Below the pieces are notes generated by a model. It worked only from the letters and a program-made list of their open reading frames with translations. It was not told where the DNA came from and did no database searches. The translations under genes and the position numbers were made by a program. Shown here piece after piece: positions 13,444 to 52,568 of a stretch of 64,000 bases of DNA (position 1 is its first letter; every line of letters begins with the position of its first letter). This DNA is from Verrucomicrobiales bacterium (GTDB lineage Bacteria; Verrucomicrobiota; Verrucomicrobiia; Verrucomicrobiales; DEV007). Location: positions 1 through 64,000 of the forward strand of contig PBSY01000038.1 in NCBI GenBank assembly GCA_002726915.1, in the 5' to 3' direction.

Positions 13444-16400
13444 ATGCCCAAAACCCCCTCCAAATCAGCCCAAAGCATTGAAGTTCGCGGTGCCCGCCAA
13501 AATAACCTCCTAGGCATCGATCTGGACATCCCCATCGGCAAGCTCACCGTGATGACCGGGCCAAGTGGGTCCGGCAAATCAAGCCTCGCCTTTCAGACCC
13601 TCTACGCTGAAGGGCAACGCCGCTACGTAGAAACCTTCTCGCCCTACACCCGGCAGTTCTTTGATCGAATGGACAAGCCACAGGTCGACGCGATTCACGG
13701 CATCCCCCCTGCAATCGCAATTGAGCAACAAAACGCCGTCAAAACGACCCGCTCCACCGTTGGCACGATCACTGAAATTAACGACTATCTGAAGCTCCTA
13801 TTTCCCCGTCTCTGCCGCGGTTACGACCCGGTTAGTGGAGACCTCATTGAGCCAGATACTCCAGAATCAATTCACCGCAAGACCGTTGAACGCTTCAGTG
13901 GAACCACCACCCTACTTGTTCTCTTCAGTGTCCCCGTTCCCGCCAATACTCCCGTCGCCGAATTTTTTGAATTCCTCCAACAGCAGGGCTATGCCCGCGT
14001 CTGGATTTACGAAAACGCCTACCGCGTGGATTCCCCTAATACCTACGACAGGAAGAGCCTGCCCAGCAAAGTCGACGTGATTCAGGATCGCATCGCCCCA
14101 GGGAAGCGTTCTCGATTTATCGAAGCTATTGAACGCGCACTCGACTTCGGCAAAGGAACGGTATCCCTAGTCGAACCCACTTCCGGAAATCGAGCCGCTT
14201 TCTCGCAAGGTTGGACTTCTCCTGAAACTGGGACGACCCTAAAACCTCCCCTACCGGGACTCTTCTCTTTCAATCATCCCATGGGCGCATGCCCTGAGTG
14301 CCGCGGCTTCGGGCGTGTTATTGGAATTGATATCGACAAAGCTCTTCCTGACAAATCAATATCCATTGCCGAAGGACTAGTGCGAGCTTTCCAGGGTGAA
14401 GCCTACTACGAATGCGAAGAGGATCTTGAGCGCTGTGCCCGGACCCGCGGACTCAGCATCGTGACCCCTTTTGAAGATCTACCCGAAGAGGACCAGCAAT
14501 GGATCATCGAAGGCGAAGGAGGGACCCCCGAAGACGCCTACCAAATGGGCTCATGGTACGGCGTTCGTGGCTTTTTTGAATGGCTGGAATCGCGCGCATA
14601 TCGCATGCATGTCAGGGTTTTTTTAAGTCGATACCGCAGCTATACAACCTGTAATTCGTGTAAGGGAACTCGCCTTAAATCTGACGCTCTCAATTATAAG
14701 ATCAACGAAAAAACTCTGCCTGATCTCTGGCAGCTTTCGATCGATGATCTTGCTGAATTTTTTACCACAATCAAGGCACGCCCAAACGACCGCACCACGA
14801 CGATGCTCTATGAGGAAGTTGGTAACCGCCTCGGTTACTTGCGCGAGGTGGGACTCGGCTACCTCAATCTCGATCGCCCTACCCGTACGCTTTCTGGCGG
14901 GGAAACGGAGCGAGTCAATCTGACGACCTGCCTCGGAGCTAGCCTGACCAACACCCTGTTCGTCCTCGACGAGCCTACTGTCGGTCTTCATCCGCGTGAC
15001 GTTGGTAAGCTAATCGGCATAATGCAACGTCTCCGTGATCTTGGAAATACGTTGGTTGTGGTAGAGCATGAGGAAGCTGTTATTCGTGCAGCAGACCACC
15101 TCGTTGATATTGGTCCCGGTCGCGGTGAGGAAGGCGGGCACCTCGTTTACGCGGGCTCAGCAGCCAGCACTGCCGCTCAAGCTAAACTTCTAGCAAAAGC
15201 GAATCCGGAGTCGCTCACCCTCCAATACCTCAGCGGAGATCAGGAAATTTCCCTGCCGAAAAAACGGCGAAAGGCCAAGCACCAACTCAAAATCAAAAGA
15301 GCCACTCAACACAACCTGAAGAGGCTGGATGCTGATATTCCCCTCGGAGTGTTTTGCTGTGTCACGGGGGTGTCAGGTTCAGGGAAATCGACCCTAATTC
15401 ACTCAGTTCTCTACGGCAACCTTGTGAAAGAACTAGGCCTTTCCGGTGCGACTACGGAAATAGGTTTCTGCAAAGGAATCGCGGGCGCCAGTCGAATTCG
15501 CGAAGTCGTCATGGTCGACCAGGCCCCTCTCGCCAAAACGCCACGCTCAACGCCCGCTGTTTACACTGGTATATTTGAGCCGATTCGGAAGCTGTTTGCC
15601 GAAACGCCTGACGGTAAATCTCGTGACCTCACGCCAGGTTACTTTTCGTTCAACAGTGGAACCGGACGGTGCTCCCGTTGCATGGGAAACGGATATGAAA
15701 AGGTTGAGATGCAATTTCTTAGCGACCTTTATGTGACCTGCCCTGAATGCGAAGGCAAACGTTACACTCCTGAAGCACTTGAGATAGAGCTTGAAGGGAA
15801 AGATATTTATCAGGTGCTCAGTATGACGGTGACTGAGGCGATTAAGTTTTTCTCAACAATCGACAATCGTAAGGCGCGGGTCGTGGTAGAAGGGCTGAAC
15901 CTCCTCTCTGAGGTCGGCCTCGGTTACCTTCGCCTCGGGCAACCCCTTAACACTCTCAGTGGCGGCGAAAGCCAGCGCCTGAAGCTGATCGGTCACCTGC
16001 TAGCTAAGCCAAAGCGAGCAAAAAAGGACGACAAGACCACCTTGCTGATTTTCGACGAGCCAACCACCGGCCTTCATTTCGACGATACCAGCATGCTTCT
16101 GAAGGTCTTTGAGCGGCTCGTCGAAGCAGGGGATTCGGTGGTCGTGATCGAACACAACCTCGATGTCATCAAATGCGCTGACCATCTCATCGACCTCGGA
16201 CCGGAAGCCGGGATCAATGGCGGTGAAATCGTGGTAGCGGGATCACCGGAGGAGGTCATGGCCAACGCAAGATCTCACACCGGACACTACCTCGCCCAGC
16301 ATCTCACACCTCGAAAGTCTGTCGCGCGTGACCAGCTAAAGGTCGCCGACTCCGCCAATCCGGTTCTCTACGAGGCCAACCGGGCGGAAAATGCAATCCA

Positions 16401-19080
16401 GCTACACGGAGCAAGGGAGAACAACCTCAAGGGAATCGATGTAACGATTCCACGCGAAAAATTCGTCGTTGTCACGGGCCTGAGTGGATCCGGGAAATCA
16501 ACTCTTGCCTTCGATATTCTCTTTGCCGAAGGCCAGCGCCGCTTTCTCGACAGCATGTCGACTTATGCCCGCCAATTCGTCGAGCAGATGGAACGTCCTG
16601 ACATTGATGTTATTTCCGGCCTTCCTCCCACCGTTGCAATCGAGCAACGCATCTCTCGTGGCGGCGGAAAGTCCACCGTTGCCACTGTGACTGAGGTATG
16701 GCATTTCCTGCGCCTACTTTATGCTAAGGTGGGAACCCAATTTTCCCCGGATTCTGGCAAAAAAGTCGAGAAGCAAAGCGTCACTTCTATCGTCACCCGC
16801 ATTCGCAAGACTTCCAAAAAAGGTAAGCGCCCCGTTAAAGTAATGGCTCCGCTTATCAAGGCGAGAAAGGGTTACCACACCGAGGTGGCCGAGTTGGCTG
16901 GGCGACAAGGCTTCGATACTCTACTGGTCGATGGGCAGTTCGTAGAGGTAAAATCCTTCAAACGCCTCGAACGGTTCAAGGAACACTCCATTGACGTCAT
17001 TGTCGGAGAGGTGACGCCGAAAACCACTCCGGAAACTGTTCTCGAATTGGTGGAAACAGCACTCCGACTGGGCAAGCGGACGCTCCGCTTTCTGGATCCC
17101 GAAAATCGGATTCAGGTTGCCAACACCGAAATGAGTGATCCCGATACGGGTCGCTCCTTCGAAGAACTCGATCCTCGCCTCTTCTCCTACAATTCCCCCC
17201 ATGGCTGGTGTCCTCTCTGCCGCGGCTACGGCACCATAGAGAAACGCAGTGTCCGCTCCGATGAACGTGACGCTGAATCGCAACTTGATGCTGAACTCCG
17301 CGAAGAACATCGTCGATCCCGCGTAAAAGACGACAGCGAGACGGAAATTTGCCCAGAATGTAATGGAGGCCGACTCAATGAGGTTGCTCGATTTGTCCGT
17401 CTCGTGCAAGGATGTGAGCAAATTGCAATCCATGAACTTGCGGCCCTCTCGGTTAGCGAAGCCAAGCTGAAAATCAGTCATTTTAAATTTGAAGGTGAGA
17501 AAGCCCTCATTACACGCGACATCCTGCCTGAAATCATCCAGCGACTCCACTTCATGGAAGAAGTTGGCCTTGGCTATCTTCAACTGGATCGATCCGCTAC
17601 TACCCTCAGCGGAGGCGAAAGCCAACGTATTCGCTTGGCGGCTCAGTTAGGATCCAATCTAAGGGGTGTTCTCTACGTTCTCGACGAACCCACCATCGGG
17701 CTTCATCCCCGTGACAATGCCAACCTGCTCGACACTCTGGAGGCTTTGAAGGAAAAGGGGAACTCCCTTGTCGTGGTAGAACACGATGAAGAGACGATCC
17801 GTCGATCTGACCATCTCATTGATCTCGGACCCGGAGCCGGGCAATTCGGAGGGGAAGTGGTGTGGCAAGGATCGCCGGAAAAGCTTTTCAACGCGAAGAA
17901 AAGCAACAGTAAGTCACCCACCCTTGAGGCTTTCTCACATCCGCTGACACACCCGATGAAAGGAGCCCGACGCAAACTCCCTGCCAAGAATCGCAAGGCT
18001 GGATGGATAAGGATCAAGGGTGCCTCGGCTAACAACTTAAAGAATATCGATGTTCGTATACCTGTTGGTCGTCTGACCGTCATCGCCGGCATTTCAGGCT
18101 CGGGCAAATCCAGCCTCATGCGAGGGGTTATCAAGCCCGCGGTCGATTCTGTTCTCAAGAAACCCAAAGGCAAGACAGCCCAGAAAAAGGAGCCGAAGAC
18201 AAAATCCACCTCACACCGTAAAACATGGAGTTCTATCGAAGGAATCGACCAACTCGAAGCGGTTTATGAGGTCGATCAGTCCCCCATTGGGAAGACTTCA
18301 CGATCCACTCCAGCCACCTACGTGAAGGTCTTTGACGAAATCCGTAAGCTGTTCGCTCAGTTACCGGAGGCCCGAGCCCGCGGCTACACCCCCTCGCGCT
18401 TCTCTTTCAACACTAATGGTGGACGCTGCGAAGCCTGCAAGGGCAACGGCCAGATCAAGCTGGAAATGAATTTTCTTCCAACTACATACGTCGTTTGCGA
18501 AGAATGTCAGGGGCGTCGCTTCAACAGCTCAACTCTCGAGATTGAATACAACGGTAAATCCATCGGTGACATCATGGATTTATCCATTGAGGAAGCAGCC
18601 AGCTTCTTTCAAGGCCACCCCAAGATCTCACGGACGCTAAACCTGATGACTGATACTGGTCTCGGCTACCTCCGTCTCGGCCAACCCAGCCCCTCTGTTT
18701 CCGGAGGGGAAGCTCAGCGCATCAAGCTCGTGTCCGAGCTAACGCGAGGCATGGGCCGTTCCGCCAACGCCCGCATTCGCCAAAATCGACAACCGAAGTC
18801 GAATCTCTATCTTATTGAGGAGCCCAGCATTGGTCTCCATACGGCTGATGTGAAACGTTTGCTCGAAGTGATGCATCGTCTCGTAGATGACGGGCACACC
18901 GTGATCGTCATCGAGCACAGTCTTGAGATCATGGCGGAAGCCGATCATCTTATTGAGATAGGACCCGAAGCCGGAGTTAATGGCGGCACCCTCGTGGCGG
19001 CAGGAACTCCGGAGGAAGTGAGTAAAGTTAAGGATAGTCGGACCGCGCCATTTTTATTGCGTGAGTTGAATCTCGCTTGA
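13444..19080 (+). CDS. uvrA: tandem double-length UvrA (excinuclease ABC subunit A)
   Basis: Damage-recognition ATPase of nucleotide excision repair, here 1878 residues, about twice normal length. It is a tandem fusion of two UvrA-like units with four ABC cassettes: Walker A at about residues 39 (GPSGSGKSS), 642 (GVSGSGKST), 1012 (GLSGSGKST) and 1549 (GISGSGKSS). Signatures are LSGGETERVN, LSGGESQRLK, LSGGESQRIR and VSGGEAQRIK, each with a D-E-P or E-E-P Walker B. Both units keep CxxC zinc modules, for example CSRCMGNG/CPECEGKR in unit 1 and CEACKGNG/CEECQGRR in unit 2. The units join near residue 965. The start ATG has a Shine-Dalgarno-like GAGGA 5 bases upstream, rare in this window. The frame is intact throughout. 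Confidence 0.95.
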   Translation: MPKTPSKSAQSIEVRGARQNNLLGIDLDIPIGKLTVMTGPSGSGKSSLAFQTLYAEGQRRYVETFSPYTRQFFDRMDKPQVDAIHGIPPAIAIEQQNAVKTTRSTVGTITEINDYLKLLFPRLCRGYDPVSGDLIEPDTPESIHRKTVERFSGTTTLLVLFSVPVPANTPVAEFFEFLQQQGYARVWIYENAYRVDSPNTYDRKSLPSKVDVIQDRIAPGKRSRFIEAIERALDFGKGTVSLVEPTSGNRAAFSQGWTSPETGTTLKPPLPGLFSFNHPMGACPECRGFGRVIGIDIDKALPDKSISIAEGLVRAFQGEAYYECEEDLERCARTRGLSIVTPFEDLPEEDQQWIIEGEGGTPEDAYQMGSWYGVRGFFEWLESRAYRMHVRVFLSRYRSYTTCNSCKGTRLKSDALNYKINEKTLPDLWQLSIDDLAEFFTTIKARPNDRTTTMLYEEVGNRLGYLREVGLGYLNLDRPTRTLSGGETERVNLTTCLGASLTNTLFVLDEPTVGLHPRDVGKLIGIMQRLRDLGNTLVVVEHEEAVIRAADHLVDIGPGRGEEGGHLVYAGSAASTAAQAKLLAKANPESLTLQYLSGDQEISLPKKRRKAKHQLKIKRATQHNLKRLDADIPLGVFCCVTGVSGSGKSTLIHSVLYGNLVKELGLSGATTEIGFCKGIAGASRIREVVMVDQAPLAKTPRSTPAVYTGIFEPIRKLFAETPDGKSRDLTPGYFSFNSGTGRCSRCMGNGYEKVEMQFLSDLYVTCPECEGKRYTPEALEIELEGKDIYQVLSMTVTEAIKFFSTIDNRKARVVVEGLNLLSEVGLGYLRLGQPLNTLSGGESQRLKLIGHLLAKPKRAKKDDKTTLLIFDEPTTGLHFDDTSMLLKVFERLVEAGDSVVVIEHNLDVIKCADHLIDLGPEAGINGGEIVVAGSPEEVMANARSHTGHYLAQHLTPRKSVARDQLKVADSANPVLYEANRAENAIQLHGARENNLKGIDVTIPREKFVVVTGLSGSGKSTLAFDILFAEGQRRFLDSMSTYARQFVEQMERPDIDVISGLPPTVAIEQRISRGGGKSTVATVTEVWHFLRLLYAKVGTQFSPDSGKKVEKQSVTSIVTRIRKTSKKGKRPVKVMAPLIKARKGYHTEVAELAGRQGFDTLLVDGQFVEVKSFKRLERFKEHSIDVIVGEVTPKTTPETVLELVETALRLGKRTLRFLDPENRIQVANTEMSDPDTGRSFEELDPRLFSYNSPHGWCPLCRGYGTIEKRSVRSDERDAESQLDAELREEHRRSRVKDDSETEICPECNGGRLNEVARFVRLVQGCEQIAIHELAALSVSEAKLKISHFKFEGEKALITRDILPEIIQRLHFMEEVGLGYLQLDRSATTLSGGESQRIRLAAQLGSNLRGVLYVLDEPTIGLHPRDNANLLDTLEALKEKGNSLVVVEHDEETIRRSDHLIDLGPGAGQFGGEVVWQGSPEKLFNAKKSNSKSPTLEAFSHPLTHPMKGARRKLPAKNRKAGWIRIKGASANNLKNIDVRIPVGRLTVIAGISGSGKSSLMRGVIKPAVDSVLKKPKGKTAQKKEPKTKSTSHRKTWSSIEGIDQLEAVYEVDQSPIGKTSRSTPATYVKVFDEIRKLFAQLPEARARGYTPSRFSFNTNGGRCEACKGNGQIKLEMNFLPTTYVVCEECQGRRFNSSTLEIEYNGKSIGDIMDLSIEEAASFFQGHPKISRTLNLMTDTGLGYLRLGQPSPSVSGGEAQRIKLVSELTRGMGRSANARIRQNRQPKSNLYLIEEPSIGLHTADVKRLLEVMHRLVDDGHTVIVIEHSLEIMAEADHLIEIGPEAGVNGGTLVAAGTPEEVSKVKDSRTAPFLLRELNLA

Positions 19081-43095: not shown

Positions 43096-43131
43096 AAAAA
43101 GAAATCGCCCTCCCGCTAAGGAGGGCGATTT
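43096..43131 (-). terminator. intrinsic terminator of the TorF-like gene
   Basis: AAATCGCCCTCC (43102-43113) pairs with GGAGGGCGATTT (43120-43131) around a 6-base loop. Reading on the minus strand it is followed by CTTTTTG. It is a 12-bp perfect stem located 50 bases after the porin gene stop and just upstream of priA, separating the two transcripts. Confidence 0.9.
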
Positions 43132-43180: not shown

Positions 43181-43957
43181 TTAGAAGGAGACGGAAAGAC
43201 TCACACCACCGTGGAGGATGTCAGACTGACCTTCGTTGATGGACTGATTTGGAATGTCAGCAGCCCAGCCGGTAGGCGCTCCCTGAAAGCCGACGTAAGG
43301 CGTCAAGGTCGCGCGGCAGTTAAGTTCGATTGGAAGTGCCGCAGTCACATAGTAGTGGCTCCAGTCAGCTACAACACCGTTGTAGCCATCATTGTAAGCA
43401 AGTCCAAGTCCCAAAACAAGATCCACTGTATCGGTTACAACAAATGCTTTTTCAATTCCTGCTTCGTAGTACTGATAGTCTTGACCTGCAATTCCGAGTG
43501 AACTCGTGGCGGAAAGAGAGAAGTCGACGATGCCGAGGCTTCTGCTAAGACCGAGGGTGAGATCGCCCGTGCTAGGATCATTAGCAGTAGGGAAGTAGTA
43601 GTGAACGTAGGTTAGGCTAGTATCGAATCCGAGGTAGTTACCAAGCTCAGCACTCACGTAGAGGTCAAACTCGTCATAGTCATCTTCAATTCCGCTAAGA
43701 TACCAAAGGCCAACGTTCAAAGGAACGATGCCAGTATCGATCGTGTAGTTAACGTCAGTCCAAATGTTATCGTCTGTAAAACGCTGCCCGTAAAATACGA
43801 AAGCAGTGTCGTATCCAACGCTGATTGAACCGCCGATATCAAGACACTCTTCGATAGGTGTTTTGTCGACGACTGGGGCTTTGCCCCAATCTCCTGCGTT
43901 AACGCCGAGCGTCATCGCACCAATAATTGCAACTAGGATTGCTTTTTTCATATTCAA
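43181..43957 (-). CDS. TorF-like outer-membrane beta-barrel protein
   Basis: 258-residue exported protein with a signal peptide (MKKAILVAIIGAMTLGVNA, cleavage before GDWG). The mature protein has alternating aromatic and small residues in about ten or more amphipathic strands and ends with F (SVSLSVSF), the outer-membrane barrel signature. The segment SVGYDTAFVFYGQRF is like the TorF/Gcw_chp family of putative porins. Start is at 43957 (MNMKK) or the second ATG at 43951. A GGGAG Shine-Dalgarno sits 12 bases before the ATG, unusual here. A near-perfect sigma-54 promoter drives it, suggesting nitrogen- or other stress-related control. Confidence 0.82.
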   Translation of the reverse strand: MNMKKAILVAIIGAMTLGVNAGDWGKAPVVDKTPIEECLDIGGSISVGYDTAFVFYGQRFTDDNIWTDVNYTIDTGIVPLNVGLWYLSGIEDDYDEFDLYVSAELGNYLGFDTSLTYVHYYFPTANDPSTGDLTLGLSRSLGIVDFSLSATSSLGIAGQDYQYYEAGIEKAFVVTDTVDLVLGLGLAYNDGYNGVVADWSHYYVTAALPIELNCRATLTPYVGFQGAPTGWAADIPNQSINEGQSDILHGGVSLSVSF

Positions 43958-43997
43958 TTAACTCCCTTGGTTTGAGATGTGGTCGTAATAACCTGTT

Positions 43998-44015
43998 AGT
44001 GGATTTTAATCCACT
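43998..44015 (-). promoter_or_regulatory. 5'-UTR inverted repeat at the porin transcript start
   Basis: AGTGGATTTTAATCCACT is an 8-bp perfect inverted repeat with a 2-base centre. It lies directly downstream of the sigma-54 -12 element, so the predicted transcript would begin at or within it. It could be a 5' end hairpin or an operator. Chance occurrence of such a repeat somewhere in the window is not negligible; the position is what makes it notable. Confidence 0.45.
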
Positions 44016-44024
44016 GGATGTCAC

Positions 44025-44041
44025 CGCAATGTTCGTGCCAG
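44025..44041 (-). promoter_or_regulatory. sigma-54 (-24/-12) promoter of TorF-like gene
   Basis: Minus-strand CTGGCACGAACATTGCG matches the sigma-54 consensus (TGGCACG-N4-TTGC) at every conserved base. The spacing is exact: the GG (44038-44039) and GC (44026-44027) are separated by ten bases. The expected start site is near 44014, giving a 5' leader of about 57 bases. Inferred from sequence alone. Confidence 0.85.
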
Positions 44042-44162
44042 CTTTTGACTGTTACTTACATCAAAGGACAATCCGTCGTCAGTCTCATTTAAGAGTAGCA
44101 GTCACGCAACAAAAAATATGTGAACTTTTTCTAATAAAGCATTTGCTTGATCGTCCTTAACT

Positions 44163-44999
44163 CTAGGATTTTTTGACTATTTCAAATGTTAATGCCTTAT
44201 AATCAATGGGTTTGCACTGATTTGGGTCGTGCTTAAAAAGCCCCAATCCGACCCATGAACCGGGCTCAAATAGCTCAAAAGGGCCGGTAGCTTTGCCATG
44301 TTCTCCGAGGGAGTTTTTAATATTTTCCCCCGATTCGACGGGTTTTTCTGATTTCAGGAGCCTTAAACTTTTTTTCACCCTTCCAACACTTTCTATTCGG
44401 GAAACGATTTCTTGCCCCAAATAACAGCCCTTGTGGAAATCTACAGCCCATCGGTCCAGCCCCAGCTCTGCCGGGAAACGATTTCCGTCGATCTCGTATC
44501 CAAGTCGTGGGACTTTTGCAATAACGGAAGCCAAACGATACTCGGAAGTGCTGATACGTGATGCGGACTTAAACGCGCATGGCATTTCTTCCGATGGTAG
44601 CCAGAGATCTTTCCCTTTGAGCCCCATGCGGCGGGAACTCACTCCCAACTGGCCCTCATCAAAGTGGTGAACCAGTTTCAAGCGCCCCGTTTCATCTATA
44701 ATCTCGCAATCATCAGCTATCAGATAGCGGTCGAGACGGTGTAAAAGATCTTCCCGCTGGGAAAGCTCCCCATCTAAGATCAATTCGTCCTCCGTCGCAC
44801 TGATCCAAACGAGTGCCTCTACTTTACCCTTGATGGTGCAAAGACAAGCTGCGACTGCCTGCTGGGTGAGATCTTTCGAAACATCATTCGTGACTTGCCC
44901 GTTTAGATAACGCACCCGGTCCGGTCCTGTGATGCGAAAGACCGCCCGATCCTCTATCGAAGCCCAGCGCCCATTTAGTGATTCAATCACTTCCTTCAT
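44163..44999 (-). CDS. YgfZ/GcvT-domain folate-binding protein
   Basis: 278-residue relative of YgfZ, which assists iron-sulfur cluster assembly using folate. It shows the folate-binding GcvT-type N-terminus (FRITGPDRVRYLNGQVTNDV) and the family-diagnostic KGCYLGQEIVSRIES with the conserved Cys. The C-terminal barrel is short. The start overlaps the preceding gene's stop by 4 bases (ATGA-type), so it is translationally coupled to the dehydrogenase upstream. LeuC in this window is a candidate client (inference). Confidence 0.88.
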   Translation of the reverse strand: MKEVIESLNGRWASIEDRAVFRITGPDRVRYLNGQVTNDVSKDLTQQAVAACLCTIKGKVEALVWISATEDELILDGELSQREDLLHRLDRYLIADDCEIIDETGRLKLVHHFDEGQLGVSSRRMGLKGKDLWLPSEEMPCAFKSASRISTSEYRLASVIAKVPRLGYEIDGNRFPAELGLDRWAVDFHKGCYLGQEIVSRIESVGRVKKSLRLLKSEKPVESGENIKNSLGEHGKATGPFELFEPGSWVGLGLFKHDPNQCKPIDYKALTFEIVKKS

Positions 45000-49887: not shown

Positions 49888-51845
<1,958 letters not shown>

Positions 51846-51849
<4 letters not shown>

Positions 51850-52568
51850 GCGGTCGGAAGAGCTAGCCAAGCAGTCGTGGTGCCATCAGCGTAACGCAGC
51901 CCAAGCCGACTATTCATTTGCCCGGCCAAGACTGCGGCTGTCGCCAAACCAAGGCCATAATGTTCAGCTCCCTTGGTGGTGTGAAAAGGAACGAAAGACT
52001 GCTTCAAGCTTTTATCCGTCATCTCAACGCTCGTGTTACGGATAAAAAGATCGACAGTGCCGCCAGAACTTGCCTCCCCAGGAGGAAAAACATCGATCGC
52101 CACAGAACCATTTGGAGTCTCCGCTGAACCCTCCGCAGCGTTCTTGATCAACTGGGTGAAGACATTGCCCAGTTTCCCGGAATCTCCCGAGACCGATGGA
52201 AGCCCCTCACAAAAATTAATCTGAAGACTCACCCCAGCAGCAGCACAAACTTCCTCTGCCTTGGATTTCCAATACGTAGAGACCGTATCCAACGAAATTG
52301 AGTCACTATCGCAGCGGCCGCAACCGGAAGAGATCAACACTTCCCGATTGAGGTCCGAAGCCGTCTTGGCCGCATCCTGCATCTGTTGGGCGCTCTCACG
52401 GACCTCGTTGCTAATTCCCTCATCATAGAGAATAAGGCTCGAGAATCCCTGAATCACTCCCATCAAGTTATTGTGCTTGTGGACGAGACCCTTAAGAAAC
52501 TCCTCGTAGAAGTTCCGTGTGGCGCCTTCTTCGAGCCGATAATCGTCTGCAAATATGAAGTCGGCCAT
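51846..52568 (-). CDS. soluble histidine kinase (no sensor domain)
   Basis: 240-residue cytoplasmic kinase, probably the partner of the adjacent regulator (inference from position). HisKA-like segment LVHKHNNLMGVIQGF places the phosphoacceptor at His30, resembling the HDFNNLL type. The ATPase domain shows LIKNAAEGS (N box) and GLGLATAA (G2 box). A CGRC motif (Cys83-Cys86) between the helices could be a redox or metal site. It has no membrane segment or PAS domain and is much shorter than NtrB. It is encoded convergently with the regulator with 4-base overlap of the stops. Confidence 0.78.

Follow-up and report, generated by a model that had tools for sequence, protein, structure and literature searches.

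A porin-like gene of a member of the Verrucomicrobiales lies downstream of a close match to the sigma-54 promoter consensus and of an inverted repeat that coincides with the transcription start predicted from this match, which raises the question whether these elements are regulatory signals or chance resemblances and, if they are signals, at what level they act on the porin. The locus belongs to a stretch of 64,000 nucleotides (hereinafter, the window) from a genome of 3.53 Mb. To our knowledge, most of what is known about how outer-membrane channels are controlled comes from Pseudomonadota.

The porin-like gene and its product

The gene (43181-43951, minus strand) is an open reading frame for a protein of 256 amino acids with a signal peptide-like N-terminus. 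It is preceded by a GcvT-like gene (44163-44999), and a strong intrinsic terminator-like hairpin (43102-43131, minus strand) is located at its end, so that the gene probably gives rise to a single-gene transcript. The structure model consists of 12 strands and an N-terminal helix (mean pLDDT 85.4, pTM 0.78) and combines the signal-like N-terminal segment with the even number of strands that characterize outer-membrane beta-barrel channels. A Foldseek search with this model retrieved FapF, a COG4313 channel and OmpG and, by target TM-score, PcoB, NanC and VhGalP, at 6-16% identity. The model thus indicates that the protein is channel-like.

The label "TorF-like" given in the preliminary description is weak: with the TorF family of putative porins (TIGR02001) the protein has in common the beta-barrel and a weak profile match over residues 94-205, but the score of 18.2 bits is well below the cut-off of 47.15, and a Pfam search revealed no family match. 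A sequence search for a relative of the porin family with a solved structure yielded no credible candidate; the best hit, PCNA, contained no passing stretch and was rejected. Elsewhere in the window, an open reading frame of 1878 amino acids (13444-19080) reads like a tandem fusion of two UvrA proteins.

A conserved sigma-54 promoter element

The region upstream of the porin gene contains the -24/-12 element TGGCACGAACATTGCG (44025-44040, minus strand). The sigma-54 consensus ends in W; the element is an exact TGGCACG-N4-TTGC with a G at this last consensus base, and the initial claim of an exact fit with the right spacing therefore holds for the spacing and is nearly right for the sequence. 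As in sigma-54 promoters generally, GG and GC occupy -24 and -12 at the standard spacing. Counting 12 nt past the C of the GC in the -12 element places the predicted start at 44014, at the edge of an 8-bp inverted repeat, AGTGGATT-AA-AATCCACT (43998-44015), as had been noticed before.

A bare motif of this kind proves little, and on its own it does not go beyond chance. There are 18 sites with at most 2 mismatches in the window (16.8 expected), and the whole genome contains 8 exact copies of TGGCACG-N4-TTGC compared with 3 of the reversed pattern. Among the other 7 exact copies, the only one in promoter position precedes a glutamine synthetase gene; 4 lie inside open reading frames of the same direction, 1 is antisense within an open reading frame, and 1 has no open reading frame of at least 100 aa within about 1 kb downstream. 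Because the bare motif is barely enriched in either the window or the genome, one might regard the sigma-54 match and the hairpin as fortuitous, but this reading is scarcely credible, being already refuted by the comparisons of conservation and position that follow.

As far as sequence comparison can tell, the evidence for the sigma-54 site is its conservation rather than the exactness of the motif. Porin homologues are present in 69 of the 74 genomes of the family, and 110 gene copies, a subset of the homologue matches in these genomes, were compared using a score that is our own simple weighting of the consensus (maximum 24; strong sites, at least 20). Scores of at least 20 were found within the last 250 nt upstream of 26 of 109 porins and in 0 of 109 mirrored sequences; the remaining copy (L088), with only 18 nt upstream, was dropped from this count. 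Among the 108 porins with 400 nt of upstream sequence, there were 23 matches within 130 nt of the start. The controls gave 5 matches over 41,580 positions of the opposite strand and 6 over 27,540 positions lying farther upstream. In most conserved sites, the -12 element is located about 77-109 nt ahead of the porin ATG. Such position-specific conservation before orthologues is characteristic of a sigma-54 promoter. The preliminary description had made its reading depend on the conservation of the -24/-12 element and the hairpin, and both are conserved, the former in these 23 strong sites among 108 porins and the latter in its pairing (see below). The distribution of the site is patchy: the -12 element is changed in two copies (L025 and L029), several paralogues are without a site, and none was found before L027, the syntenic copy in genome G030.

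A second group of porin paralogues (L038, L054, L055 and L060), devoid of the leader motif described below, has sigma-54 or near sites 28-32 nt before the ATG.

The genome encodes RpoN (E 3e-61) as well as four strong sigma-54 activators, and RpoN would be the sigma factor used at the porin promoter.

A structured leader on one porin family

In the order of the predicted transcript, the leader consists of a hairpin, P1; an A-rich spacer; CAGGUUAUUACGACC, which would form a second hairpin, P2; ACAUCUCAAACCAAGGGAG, which includes the Shine-Dalgarno sequence; and the ATG, mostly 10-11 nt further on. P1 (43998-44015, minus strand), indicated by the fold and by compensatory changes, is located at the predicted 5' end and has a stem of 6-7 bp and a UAAA loop. 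P2, GGUU-AUUAC-GACC (43981-43993, minus strand), is mostly invariant, and its pairing is weakly indicated. The near-invariant segment ACATCTCAAACCAAGGGAG (43962-43980, minus strand) holds the Shine-Dalgarno sequence GGGAG (43962-43966), which stands 10 nt ahead of the porin ATG at 43951. In line with the earlier remark that this strong Shine-Dalgarno sequence is rare in the window, GGGAG was found at the porin alone among 37 hand-picked ATG-start genes; Shine-Dalgarno sequences seem to be used sparingly in this genome.

A free-energy test, which is independent of the alignment, gave a mean z of -1.16 for 35 leaders, with p <0.05 in 10 of them; L102, L103, L107 and L118, which have no more than the Shine-Dalgarno part in common with the others, as well as L045, L048 and L049, were kept out of this set, and the former four were also excluded by name from a broader set of 38 leaders. 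The leader alignment comprised 19 of 21 picked leaders, and the covariance model was built from 4 hand-chosen ones. The covariation input consisted of 89 searched loci (L050, L053, L057, L069, L088 and L112-L127 having been removed), in which 43 matches correspond to 39 distinct rows, the same place being counted again in overlapping loci; four weak matches (L100, L103, L105 and L108) are probably false leaders. Across these rows, all 4 modelled pairs of P1 are changed on both sides. There are 38 cells with compensatory changes compared with 9.0 in shuffled alignments, and the covariation is 0.326 compared with 0.131 in shuffles and 0.02-0.05 in slid controls, 0 of 500 shuffles being as high in either case and the cell counts of all slid controls being far lower; these figures lean upward because the sequences are related and were aligned by fitting them to the model. 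Two further measures did not stand out from the shuffles: pairs showing a double change numbered 4, a value reached in 259 of 500 shuffles, and 13 pair types were counted, a value reached in 68 of 500. In P2, pairing is kept in 91% of the cells, with one-sided changes only and no compensatory double change in the 39 rows.

Since the letters of the P1 stem vary while the pairing is kept, P1 appears to be conserved as RNA, which agrees with the original placement of a hairpin at the transcript start and speaks against the suggestion, made at the same time, that it is an operator. The inverted repeat, an almost perfect palindrome of 18 bp that overlaps the predicted start, could be a DNA operator for a repressor; nevertheless, GC, CG, AU and UA pairs all occur at the stem positions among the homologues, and so many sequences could hardly be read by one protein, so that this possibility is highly improbable and largely refuted. 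For 22 copies that have a sigma-54 site, the beginning of the best stem falls at -4 to +12 relative to the predicted transcription start (combined p 1.5e-5, although only 8 of the 22 reach a p of 0.1 singly). Moreover, P1 is stronger in leaders with a sigma-54 site (n=15, mean z -1.78) than in those without (n=20, mean z -0.70; p 0.002), which appears to tie it to the sigma-54 transcript. P1 also persists in copies without the site: the leader is found on porin paralogues lacking a sigma-54 site, and in these P1 would not lie at the very 5' end.

The leader is restricted to this porin family. The exact motif ACGACCANNTCTCAAACCAAGGGA occurs in 23 copies on 18 contigs of a collection of 84,980 species, each of the 23 before this porin, and the carriers are Verrucomicrobiota MAGs, one of them deposited as Opitutaceae. 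The covariance model detected 34 leader copies in 22 of the 33 genomes of the genus, all 34 directly before a family porin as judged by coordinates. In the entire order, 23 of 288 genomes have a leader match, and only G034 lies outside the genus. A search of Rfam revealed no family match for the leader, the two weak matches (E 5.2 and 0.17) being far below the gathering scores. The match in G034, from another genus (G034:C105:38688-38770), is borderline (26 bits).

Conservation extends into the beginning of the coding region: codons 1-10 of the porin (43922-43951) show a synonymous identity of 0.81 compared with 0.47-0.62 elsewhere among 11 relatives. A CTA codon among these ten is mostly conserved. 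A hairpin suggested by the fold in codons 4-8 was rejected, as it has 5 pairs in many copies and 1-4 in others. Any of seven Shine-Dalgarno-like strings is present at 5 of the 37 hand-picked ATG starts mentioned above.

An upstream sigma-70-like module

Further upstream (44081-44134, minus strand), there is an A/T-rich UP-like stretch followed by GTTGC (44106-44110), a 17-nt spacer and a weak -10-like hexamer, GAGACT (44081-44086). The preliminary description correctly recognized the hairpin but missed both this module and the longer leader, which some copies carry even though they lack a sigma-54 site. In 20 homologues, an A tract, a T tract and GTTGC are found at fixed spacing before xAnnnT, with A at +25 in 20 of 20 and T at +29 in 19 of 20; because the pattern used to pick these 20 modules fixes TTAGA and TTGC, only the other columns count as evidence. 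We consider, with moderate confidence, that the module is a basal sigma-70-type promoter. A less likely interpretation, which we regard as doubtful, is that the conserved TTAGAAAAA...TTTTTTGTTGC block is an activator site for the sigma-54 promoter and that there is no sigma-70 promoter. In 19 of 20 homologues, GTTGC stands 141-184 nt upstream of the start codon, which corresponds to an enhancer-like distance from -24 (the 271 nt in L029 reflect a start placed too far downstream owing to masked bases), and the -10-like hexamer is poor and is not listed by a consensus promoter scan. However, the block is seen in copies without a sigma-54 site as well as in those with one, the A at +25 and the T at +29 fit a -10 element separated from TTGCR by 17 nt, and the positions of the two tracts are those expected of an UP element.

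The nitrogen context

In the same window, glnB (49888-50241, minus strand), a likely co-regulated neighbor that encodes the P-II protein and has homologues in 31 of the 33 genomes of the genus, is preceded by a sigma-54 site of its own, TGGCACGCTAGATGCT (50284-50299, minus strand). The palindrome GGTAATTAAATTACC (50377-50391) is located between glnB and the divergent gene for an NtrC-like sigma-54 activator with receiver, AAA+ and Fis-type HTH domains (50419-51849, plus strand), which is one of the four strong activators and lies about 6 kb from the porin; the activator scores 458.3 bits against TIGR01818, below the cut-off of 558.6. A histidine-kinase-like protein containing HATPase_c (51846-52568, minus strand) is a possible partner. 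Sets of 30 loci each were collected for glnB and glutamine synthetase, of which 27 and 29, respectively, were scored: a sigma-54 site precedes glnB in 27 of 27 and glutamine synthetase in 28 of 29 genus loci, the mirrored count being 0 for both. In ten genomes (G000, G002, G006, G010, G023, G024, G026, G027, G029 and G030), the porin and glnB are on one contig, about 6-9 kb apart by coordinates.

The genus-wide sites at glnB and glutamine synthetase support a nitrogen link of the porin, as would be expected of the NtrC/sigma-54 nitrogen regulon (glnA, glnB); in contrast to that regulon, the porin has no recognized shared activator site. A porin would, in our judgement, be an unusual member of such a regulon. 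The glnB palindrome is a likely activator site: the dyad GGTA-N7-TACC was found in 24 of 54 upstream regions of glnB and glutamine synthetase combined, all 24 of them belonging to glnB (24 of 27), and in 0 of 27 glutamine synthetase and 0 of 26 porin upstream regions. An activator dyad common to glnB and the porin was rejected given this absence from the 26 porin upstreams. As the porin does not share the palindrome, its activator and its nitrogen signal remain putative. The original suggestion that the porin is upregulated together with glnB under nitrogen limitation thus gains a genus-wide sigma-54 regulon that includes glnB and glutamine synthetase but not a common palindrome, and stays at the level of inference. 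Upstream of glutamine synthetase (L211, G000:C87), the -24 element of the sigma-54 site is immediately preceded by TTGACA in many relatives, which gives the impression of an overlapping sigma-70 -35 element.

A model of porin control and its alternatives

The best explanation of these observations, in which we place about as much trust as doubt, is a nitrogen-controlled sigma-54 porin with a basal sigma-70-type promoter and an ompA-like stabilizing or regulated leader. Under this model, the sigma-54 promoter would drive the porin, very probably via an NtrC-type activator in nitrogen shortage, and the upstream sigma-70-type promoter probably adds basal transcription. The sigma-54 transcript would begin at or beside the stable hairpin P1, and P1, P2 and the open near-invariant segment with its unusually good Shine-Dalgarno sequence would make up one leader that resembles that of Escherichia coli ompA in its action: degradation of the porin mRNA would be hindered by the paired 5' end, and an accessible ribosome site would allow a high yield. 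Probably, the invariant segment also serves as a landing site for a small RNA or an RNA-binding protein that lowers porin synthesis. On this analysis, the leader probably controls the lifetime or the translation of the porin message.

The 5' untranslated region of ompA, a stabilizing leader and a target of MicA, has a hairpin at its 5' end, a second hairpin and an open stretch with the Shine-Dalgarno sequence. The porin leader, likewise upstream of an outer-membrane gene, shows the same arrangement, the stem-loop being 5'-terminal if the predicted start is taken as the 5' end; unlike ompA, it is tied to a sigma-54 start and has an invariant segment common to paralogues; the likeness concerns anatomy. 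The stability of E. coli ompA mRNA and its relation to MicA have been described (PMC7509114). Another report describes BCAL3473 of Burkholderia cenocepacia, a porin with sigma-54-like elements that is induced by nitrogen depletion in parallel with a P-II gene and whose 5' region is a target of the small RNA NcS25 (PMC10117139). This Burkholderia porin thus provides a precedent for each piece of the present model. BCAL3473 differs in belonging to another phylum and in its extended -24/-12 spacer, which is standard here.

Counted against the model are the lack of a recognized activator site, the presence of the leader on paralogues without a sigma-54 site, the loss of sites in L025, L029 and L027 and the absence of compensatory double changes in P2. 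A different reading, possible albeit on the unlikely side, is that the main role of the leader is to switch translation or decay in response to a trans-acting factor, a small RNA or an RNA-binding protein, by which the levels of all porin paralogues are set together, sigma-54 being a later, optional input. The segment around the Shine-Dalgarno sequence is indeed preserved almost word for word with and without sigma-54 sites while the sequence of P1 drifts, and in the predicted fold UCUC can pair with the Shine-Dalgarno GGGA, a pairing that L024, with GAGA, keeps. Yet the invariant letters yield no covariation, the factor is hypothetical, and the stronger P1 in sigma-54 copies links P1 to that start. 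A broader idea, put forward here tentatively, is that the leader represents a genus-specific class of cis-regulatory RNA that marks the porin mRNAs of this Verrucomicrobiota group. A dedicated small RNA or protein would recognize it, such that the paralogues would be dosed together, and sigma-54 promoters would supply some of them with a nitrogen input.

Among open-licence PMC papers, we found nothing related for Verrucomicrobiota combined with sigma-54 and a porin, nor for the TorF family combined with a porin, and no Verrucomicrobiota RNA motifs with covariation; within the same literature, which was also examined for sigma-54 regulons of PVC bacteria and for sigma-54 in connection with porins under nitrogen limitation, neither the combination described here in Verrucomicrobiota nor the leader motif was found in print. 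The main text of a sigma-54 regulon survey (PMC12316311) has no word beginning with "porin".

The locus offers a testable case in Verrucomicrobiota in which one porin family is subject to both a structured leader and a nitrogen sigma factor, in the context of a genus-wide nitrogen regulon that would comprise glnB, glutamine synthetase and the porin, and the conserved RNA motif provides direct handles in the form of compensatory mutants and a search for small RNAs.
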